NCBI GenBank assembly: GCA_015272325.1
Contig: JACYLU010000036.1
Location: 186,001-250,000 of the forward strand
DNA: 64,000 nucleotides
Direction of reading: 5' to 3'
Origin: Synechococcales cyanobacterium C42_A2020_086
Lineage (GTDB): Bacteria > Cyanobacteriota > Cyanobacteriia > Elainellales > Elainellaceae
Shown here: in pieces, positions 12,293-49,487 of the stretch
How positions within the stretch are numbered: position 1 is the stretch's first letter
Layout of the letters: each line of letters opens with the position of its first letter
The notes under the pieces: model-generated
Told to the model about the DNA's origin: nothing
Database searches by the model: none
Seen by the model: only the letters and a program-made list of their open reading frames with translations
Program-made: the position numbers and the translations under genes

Positions 12293-12453
12293 ACCCGTAA
12301 TCCTCTGGACAACTTCGTAACCCCACCCTAGAAGAATCCCGCAAAATCTTTGAGAAGGACGGTCTGATTTTAAAGGGTTGATGAAACCCTTACGCAATTC
12401 CGGACACCGAGCACATCATAGGTAAAAGTGAATGGTAGATGCACCCTGATTCA

Positions 12454-12480
12454 AACCCTGGAGGAAACTCCGGGGTTTTT
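12454..12480. terminator. Probable terminator after lgt
   Basis: AACCCTGGAG (12454-12463), a GAAA loop and CTCCGGGGTT (12468-12477) make a 10-bp stem with one G-U pair. T residues follow on the plus strand and an A-rich mirror gives TTT on the minus strand. It lies 50 bp past the leftward lgt stop and before the cobM promoter, so it probably ends lgt transcripts, although its U-tract is better on the plus strand. Confidence 0.7.
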
Positions 12481-12532
12481 CTGTTGCTTGCTGCCTCAGC
12501 CGAGCCGCTCGACCCGTAGAACTCAACTCGTT

Positions 12533-49104: not shown

Positions 49105-49135
49105 GAAAAAACCCGGAGCTTGGCAGTTCCGGGTT
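49105..49135 (-). terminator. Attenuator terminator 2 (aroF leader)
   Basis: On the minus strand AACCCGGA (49135-49128) and TCCGGGTT (49117-49110) form a perfect 8-bp stem followed by a six-T run. It starts 23 bases after leader peptide 2 and ends about 100 bases before the aroF ATG. The same AACCCGGA arm can instead pair with TCCGGGT at the leader 2 stop codon. Confidence 0.9.
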
Positions 49136-49158
49136 GGCTGAACACTCGCATGATCACT

Positions 49159-49224
49159 TCACCCGGAGCGAATCCTGGTCCAAAAGTAAAAGCCAAAAAA
49201 CCAGTACCGGAGAGAAGTTGCCAT
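49159..49224 (-). CDS. Aromatic leader peptide 2 of the aroF attenuator
   Basis: A 21-residue reading frame starts at the ATG at 49224 and ends at the TGA at 49161-49159. Residues 7-15 read YWFFGFYFW, eight aromatic residues in nine codons. The final codons (RSG-stop) contain TCCGGGT, which is complementary to the 5' arm of terminator 2. This is the layout of trpL/pheL-type leader peptides: a ribosome waiting for charged tRNA-Tyr, -Phe or -Trp leaves the stop-codon region free to form the antiterminator. No clear Shine-Dalgarno sequence precedes the ATG. Confidence 0.8.
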   Translation of the reverse strand: MATSLRYWFFGFYFWTRIRSG

Positions 49225-49290
49225 GGCAGAATCTGTGAAGAGTTGCAAAAGAGAATGACAAAAAAATCGGGCTGTGAAAGCAACAGCATC

Positions 49291-49324
49291 TAAAAACAAA
49301 AACCGCAGAGGTTAATCTGCGGTT
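49291..49324 (-). terminator. Attenuator terminator 1 (aroF leader)
   Basis: On the minus strand AACCGCAGA (49324-49316) and TCTGCGGTT (49309-49301) form a perfect 9-bp stem followed by TTTGTTTTT. It lies 27 bases after leader peptide 1. The upstream segment GGTTCACC inside leader 1 can pair with GGTGAACC, which shares AACC with the terminator's 5' arm, giving an alternative antiterminator. Confidence 0.9.
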
Positions 49325-49351
49325 CACCAAGAGGCTCGTACGAAAACGAAT

Positions 49352-49411
49352 TCACCCCCGGTGAACCTCCGTAAAAAACCAGACATAAAAATAGTGGCTC
49401 GAGTACTGCAT
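49352..49411 (-). CDS. Aromatic leader peptide 1 of the aroF attenuator
   Basis: A 19-residue reading frame from the ATG at 49411 to the TGA at 49354-49352 encodes MQYSSHYFYVWFFTEVHRG, with seven Tyr, Phe or Trp residues, six of them in residues 7-13. TAGGA lies five bases upstream as a ribosome-binding site. The GTT-CAC-C segment near its end (GGTTCACC) is complementary to GGTGAACC just before terminator 1; a local TTCACC/GGTGAA hairpin over the stop codon competes with this pairing. Its position, content and hairpins fit ribosome-mediated attenuation. Confidence 0.85.
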   Translation of the reverse strand: MQYSSHYFYVWFFTEVHRG

Positions 49412-49457
49412 GAAATCCTAGCTCAAAGCGCTGTTACACAATGTTGCTTTACTGCTA

Positions 49458-49487
49458 ACCGTAGCAAAGACCACAGAACTCCGTCAA
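49458..49487 (-). promoter_or_regulatory. aroF: Candidate promoter of the aroF leader
   Basis: On the minus strand TTGACG (49487-49482) and TACGGT (49463-49458) are separated by 18 bases, a plausible -35/-10 pair. The start point would be near 49450, about 40 bases before leader peptide 1, so one transcript would carry both attenuators and aroF. Confidence 0.5.

Follow-up and report, generated by a model that had tools for sequence, protein, structure and literature searches.

Two complete leader ORF–antiterminator–terminator units lie in series upstream of aroF, a DAHP synthase gene, in the window, i.e., the whole stretch of 64,000 nucleotides of cyanobacterial DNA analysed here. Sequence comparison shows the parts and the order in which they occur, pairings that exclude each other, the conservation and covariation of the units and the promoter that they share. 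The best reading of this arrangement, and a very likely one, is that of two independent ribosome-mediated transcription attenuators placed one after the other before aroF, both sensing phenylalanine, tyrosine and tryptophan, so that repression is multiplied. The regulation itself is inferred from sequence, without RNA or protein data.

Arrangement of the region upstream of aroF

On the minus strand, the promoter is followed by leader ORF 1, antiterminator and terminator 1, leader ORF 2, antiterminator and terminator 2, and aroF (Table 1). No gene is located between the promoter and aroF, and terminator 2 is separated from aroF by about 100 nt. The original prediction had proposed the two leaders, their antiterminators and terminators, and the promoter, and all of them were confirmed at the positions listed in Table 1 on reading the minus strand. 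It had missed a third pairing, GAGGTTC/GAGCCTC (the A:B helix), in unit 1. The Shine-Dalgarno sequence (TAGGA) which it had assigned to leader 1 is present, yet not conserved: 4 of 58 homologues have it, and a control stretch gives 8 of 58.

Table 1. Coordinates of the elements between the promoter and aroF in the window.
Feature	Position	Strand	Description
Promoter	49487-49458	-	TTGACG (49487-49482), N18, TACGGT; extended -10 TGCTACGGT (49466-49458)
Leader peptide ORF 1	49411-49352	-	MQYSSHYFYVWFFTEVHRG*, 19 residues; conserved in 58 homologues
Antiterminator 1, 5' arm	49367-49360	-	GGTTCACC; inside leader 1; helix 92.9% paired (57 distinct sequences)
Antiterminator 1, 3' arm	49328-49321	-	GGTGAACC; overlaps 5' arm of terminator 1
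Competing A:B helix of unit 1, 5' arm	49369-49363	-	GAGGTTC; leader strand; covariation
Competing A:B helix of unit 1, 3' arm	49337-49331	-	GAGCCTC; covariation
Intrinsic terminator 1	49324-49292	-	AACCGCAGA (49324-49316) with TCTGCGGTT (49309-49301), then T-rich to 49292
Leader peptide ORF 2	49224-49159	-	MATSLRYWFFGFYFWTRIRSG*, 21 residues; 58 homologues
Antiterminator 2, 5' arm	49167-49161	-	TCCGGGT; overlaps stop codon of leader 2; helix 91.4% paired (54 sequences)
Antiterminator 2, 3' arm	49134-49128	-	ACCCGGA; strand shared with 5' arm of terminator 2
TCATGC motif	49153-49148	-	just 3' of leader 2 stop; columns 48-53 of alignment A2
Intrinsic terminator 2	49135-49106	-	AACCCGGA (49135-49128) with TCCGGGTT (49117-49110), six T to 49106
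aroF	49007-48141	-	DAHP synthase, 288 aa; TIGR01361, PF00793

Aromatic residues occupy six of nine positions in the densest part of leader 1 and eight of nine in that of leader 2. Among ORFs of 10-30 codons on both strands of the 64-kb window, these two are the only ones with at least five aromatics in nine residues, and both have a terminator 3' of them. In 3000 dinucleotide-preserving shuffles of the 481-nt aroF upstream region, one ORF with at least six aromatics in nine residues arose in 42 trials and two arose in a single trial.

Transcription is expected, from sequence alone, to start at about 49452. Upstream of leader 1, 56 of 58 loci have a promoter of the form TTGAC-N16/17-TGnTAnnnT (1.5% in shuffles), with a median of 76 nt from the -35 element to the ATG of leader 1, and no promoter of this form was found between the units in 55 loci. 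Therefore, both gates are placed on one transcript, and the two units and aroF are inferred to be transcribed together.

Conservation of the leaders and RNA stems

Relatives were fetched with the aroF protein, which yielded 62 non-redundant cyanobacterial loci, 61 of them with enough upstream sequence. Both leaders are present in 55 of the 61 orthologous aroF loci. By ORF criteria, L035 has leader 1 only, and L095, L024 and L030 have leader 2 only. Among the carriers, which are filamentous cyanobacteria, are Nostoc, Calothrix, Scytonema, Dulcicalothrix, Iningainema, Drouetiella, Pegethrix, Phormidesmis and Laspinema. Of the strains kept in laboratories, Calothrix sp. NIES-3974 has at least unit 1, and Scytonema sp. 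NIES-4073 has both. Leader 2 of L017 and L020 does not end at the usual stop and extends to about 44 residues, with the aromatic run kept (about 200-60 nt upstream of aroF); this read-through is possibly a natural variant of the second gate.

Covariance models of both units were also run over 390 cyanobacterial genomes, and the matches were compared with the positions of aroF orthologues (n = 144, at least 68% identity, well separated from paralogues at no more than 57%). None of the 144 orthologues is without an upstream unit on its own strand: 123 have both units, 19 only unit 1 and 2 only unit 2. The models were built partly from sequences in the scanned set, so these numbers are presence counts and not independent discoveries. 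Some of the loci scored as unit 1 only hold a diverged unit 2, in which a shifted leader end or frame is accompanied by a matching new stem (CCGGGTCAGG/CCTGACCCGG in L186). Three more strong matches (G020, G004, G153) lie near contig ends, with the gene divided or truncated there, and one strong off-target match proved to be a unit 1 before an aroF pseudogene. In this locus (L187, G143:C48:72041-75134, reverse-strand 980-1331), the broken aroF is preceded by unit 1 with the leader MFSSRSYFYFWFRVVHWE, and the genome is without an intact aroF orthologue. Apart from this, no convincing copy of a unit was found at other genes in the 390 genomes, and the remaining off-target matches are weak; those in G212:C2, G032:C157, G276, G174, G352 and G146 were without an aromatic leader on reading. 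A search for the aromatic-codon pattern across the window's genome gave three matches versus four in a reversed control, and thus no sign of further such leaders. The genes adjoining aroF in the window are not conserved around its relatives, whereas the leader is; therefore, the element travels with aroF.

At the peptide level, leader 1 has a median length of 18 aa in 58 homologues, starts with ATG in all of them and contains 5-8 aromatics; 57 of the homologues have each of F, Y and W. Leader 2 has a median of 20 aa and 5-12 aromatics, with each of F, Y and W occurring in 56 of 58 homologues, and an aromatic residue, mostly W, lies seven codons ahead of the stop. The consensus sequences are M----YFYFWF-xVHxx* for unit 1 and M----WFxGFYFWxRxxSG* for unit 2, and the distance from the stop of leader 1 to the start of leader 2 is 75-191 nt (median 99). 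At the aromatic positions, F, Y and W interchange freely among homologues. The non-aromatic tails, in turn, vary in step with the RNA pairing (VHRE, VHLG, VHQG, AHRG and PPVHRS; SG, PG and AAGSGWR).

The helices were assessed on alignments A1 (unit 1, 58 sequences) and A2 (unit 2, 54 sequences). The original prediction had proposed covariation in the terminator and antiterminator stems as a check, and compensatory changes were found in antiterminator 1, terminator 1, the A:B helix, antiterminator 2 and terminator 2. The covariation of antiterminator 1 was 0.161 versus 0.072 after shuffling, with none of 500 shuffles as high, and at one pair UA, AU, GU and UG substitute for CG. The A:B helix, in which a GnGGT leader strand pairs with a downstream ACCnC and which competes with antiterminator 1, is 78.8% paired, with a covariation of 0.219 versus 0.140 (0/500) and AU, CG, UG and UA at its central pair. 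The terminator 1 stem is 98.1% paired (57 distinct sequences) and that of terminator 2 89.4% (54 sequences); pair 79-114 of A2 is AU in 32 sequences, GC in 15 and CG in 1. In antiterminator 2, pair 30-86 of A2 is UA in 26, CG in 15 and GC in 2. When the partners were shifted by 1-3 columns, the paired fraction dropped sharply for every helix.

Both antiterminators have their 5' arms inside the leader ORF and share strand C with their terminators, which makes the two pairings mutually exclusive in each unit. Terminators 1 and 2 are conserved together with their T-runs, which places an intrinsic terminator between the leader and the gene in both units. In diverged relatives, e.g., L174, L181 and the version with the new unit 2 stem described above, both arms have been replaced jointly. 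Relatedness among the sequences is not removed by the covariation shuffles, and a tree-aware paired test had too few supported branches. Selection for pairing is nevertheless inferred as by far the most sensible reading of the stems, given how many pair states occur and that both arms were exchanged jointly in L174 and L181.

Two further elements were observed in the alignments. The TCATGC motif after the stop of leader 2 is not explained by the named helices and may be a pause or loop element; attempts to interpret it as a pause site or as a partner in pairing gave nothing consistent. A local hairpin TTCACC/GGTGAA (49365-49351, minus strand; A1 columns 29-43), detected with RNAalifold, overlaps the stop of leader 1, but its pairs hardly vary and it is therefore indistinguishable from coding constraint.

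Proposed mechanism and alternative explanations

A translating ribosome was modelled as a mask extending 12 nt past the first base of the A-site codon, with equilibrium folding of the RNA downstream of it. The model was run over 58 (unit 1) and 54 (unit 2) homologues, and kinetics were ignored. In unit 1, the antiterminator probability was 0.96-1.0 with the A site at codons -12 to -9, which are aromatic in nearly all species; it was 0.72 at codon -8 (mostly Trp), 0.15 at -7 and 0 at every codon from -6 onwards, the stop included. For unit 2, the corresponding values were 0.93 at -15, at least 0.95 from -14 to -6 and 0.09 at -5, then 0; codon -7 is aromatic in 54 of 54 sequences and Trp in 49. 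Therefore, the aromatic run ends where a stalled ribosome ceases to hide the antiterminator arm. The model predicts for both units that a ribosome on the aromatic codons frees the antiterminator and a ribosome at the stop codon hides it, as in trp attenuation.

Without a ribosome, antiterminator 1 forms in the equilibrium model (0.95), and a trp-like protector in unit 1 is thus not clearly effective. The A:B helix occurs just as a transient in partial transcripts and is not the favoured fold at equilibrium after strand C has been made, and no protector (1:2) structure was identified in unit 2. With the full terminator present, the unit 2 terminator beats its antiterminator at equilibrium in most sequences. 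The antiterminator must therefore form first, and the folding order must matter.

In the proposed mechanism, a single transcript starting near 49452 would meet both attenuators ahead of aroF. Each leader has many codons for Phe, Tyr and Trp, and its end falls on the 5' arm of the antiterminator. With an ample supply of charged aromatic tRNAs, the ribosome would reach the stop codon and cover this arm; the downstream strand would then pair with the 3' arm of the terminator and transcription would stop. When any one of the three is scarce, the ribosome would stall on the aromatic run, leaving the arm free for the antiterminator to form and the polymerase to continue. Since the polymerase must clear both gates, their read-through fractions would multiply, which may result in strong repression of an isozyme without an allosteric domain. 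Leader translation, termination, the tRNA signal, the multiplication and the response to starvation are all inferences at this stage.

The original prediction had suggested that two gates could either multiply repression or integrate different tRNA charging signals. The F/Y/W proportions are 50/32/18% in leader 1 versus 52/28/20% in leader 2. Units sensing different amino acids were therefore rejected and the integration of different signals is not favoured; the units appear to repeat one question, and multiplied repression is inferred to be the better fit. The prediction's interpretation of the region as attenuation is supported, and the conservation check in relatives which it proposed was passed by the leaders, stems, order, promoter and target in 144 genomes.

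The aroF product in the window scores 358.2 bits with TIGR01361 (B. subtilis type; curated cut-off 267.75) and belongs to the KDO8P-synthase-related, type I-beta DAHP synthases. PF00793 is its sole DAHP-synthase-specific domain, and it is without the ferredoxin-like regulatory domain; a second DAHP synthase of the same genome has PF00793 plus the ferredoxin-like (FXD) domain PF18152. In this enzyme class, feedback inhibition resides in the ferredoxin-like domain, and enzymes that lack the domain are insensitive to it. Because aroF lacks this domain, attenuation in place of allostery is a reasonable possibility for this isozyme, although it has not been shown. No convincing leader of this kind was found before the DAHP synthase paralogue in 18 of the 19 loci read. 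In the exception, L196 (G055:C15:366279-368076, about 560-700 nt in), a single aromatic leader MKNSQFWYSFTFRSATGVRHRSG and a strong terminator precede a paralogue with a longer N-terminus; this may be an independent one-gate attenuator of another lineage.

Several alternative explanations were considered. According to the first, only one unit works, and the other is a remnant, a fixed terminator or a brake. In its favour, a few lineages have a single unit (the four single-leader loci given above, and 19 + 2 of the 144 by model), and leader 2 has no stop at the usual place in L017 and L020. However, most genomes keep, in both units, the reading frame, the aromatic run, the place of the stop codon and the complementarity of the stems, some apparent single-unit loci hold a diverged unit 2, and a remnant would not preserve compensatory changes. 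This explanation is therefore considered unlikely.

It is also improbable that the units respond to another stalling or uncoupling signal, such as general starvation, the light-dark energy state or an antibiotic, and not to the charging of aromatic tRNAs. The Salmonella mgtM leader senses ATP through coupling (PMC3641672), which gives this explanation some support, and light is known to swing the energy state of cyanobacteria. Against it, the codons are those of the pathway end products, all three of them in both leaders, at a conserved distance to the antiterminator, and classical attenuators work by such codons. Less likely still is the possibility that the leaders are small trans-acting peptides, the hairpins being ordinary terminators that yield short RNAs. 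The peptides are strongly conserved, and action in trans has been reported for the Sinorhizobium trp leader peptide (PMC7298713). However, the tails follow RNA pairing and not peptide chemistry, the aromatics swap freely, and the mutually exclusive pairing would be left unexplained. Finally, intergenic terminators are common and terminator 2 stands about 100 nt away from aroF, but hairpins belonging to an upstream gene, with the aroF promoter further down, are all but excluded by the conserved promoter before leader 1, the lack of any gene between it and aroF, and an upstream gene not conserved in relatives.

Relation to known attenuators and significance

The two serial attenuators proposed here resemble the trp and pheA attenuators of E. 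coli and the trp attenuators of Corynebacterium and Streptomyces (PMC1262725) in having a leader with codons for the pathway product, an intrinsic terminator and a biosynthetic target. An antiterminator overlapping both leader and terminator is likewise shared with trp/pheA. Unlike in those systems, two complete units are present, each leader contains all three aromatics, the target is a DAHP synthase, and the leader ORF contains the competing strand. It is inferred that the features of trp-type attenuation that can be checked in the sequence, masking being computed, are all met bar an effective protector helix. No match to Rfam amino-acid leader families or T-box was obtained at the gathering threshold; the sole match at E up to 5 was a chance miRNA hit.

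The original prediction had regarded two consecutive units as not described, and this claim has to be amended. In Salmonella, the mgtCBR operon has tandem leader-ORF attenuators, mgtM and mgtP, which have been called a singular example (PMC3641672). Both systems have two short leader ORFs in series in one leader mRNA of one operon and couple translation to transcription. The mgtCBR leaders respond to differing signals (ATP and proline), whereas here the same amino-acid set is found in both leaders, by codon content. Moreover, the mgtCBR stem-loops are unlike intrinsic terminators and a Rho-dependent route has been suggested (PMC3641672), whereas each unit described here has an intrinsic terminator; the mgtCBR targets serve Mg transport and virulence, and the present one biosynthesis. 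The uORFC-13-1 motif upstream of Acholeplasma aroF (PMC8632094) likewise combines a putative leader ORF that has Phe codon(s) with a terminator before a DAHP synthase gene, but it is a single unit, known from 24 sequences (Acholeplasma and unassigned environmental), with Phe only and no Tyr/Trp run described. The tandem riboswitches of Bacillus clausii metE (per PMC3641672) are likewise two attenuators with their own intrinsic terminators before one biosynthetic gene; their sensors are SAM and B12 riboswitches and not translated leaders.

A survey of leader genes published in 2016 stated that reliable data on cyanobacterial attenuation are lacking (PMC4833913). The open-access literature searched yielded no description of this element, and an earlier brief mention in subscription literature is not excluded. 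The element is notable for its host group, the depth of its conservation and the doubling of one signal. A bolder reading, which we consider more likely than not, is that a same-signal two-gate attenuator goes back to an ancestor shared by Nostoc-, Leptolyngbya- and Laspinema-like cyanobacteria and takes the place of allosteric feedback on a DAHP synthase that has no regulatory domain. It would then be the first well-supported ribosome-mediated attenuator of cyanobacteria and a sign of tight coupling between transcription and translation. The element offers an assay for such coupling in this group, could explain how a pathway entry enzyme is controlled without an allosteric domain, and gives the engineering of aromatics in cyanobacteria a specific control element to remove. 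It also poses the question of why two gates with an identical signal are kept in series.

Elsewhere in the window, a single-copy match to NsiR1 (RF02399, 49.3 bits), an sRNA of heterocyst-forming cyanobacteria, was observed at 12433-12484 on the plus strand. No NsiR1 tandem array was found near this position, and the match is flanked by genes which we take to be cobM-like and lgt-like.
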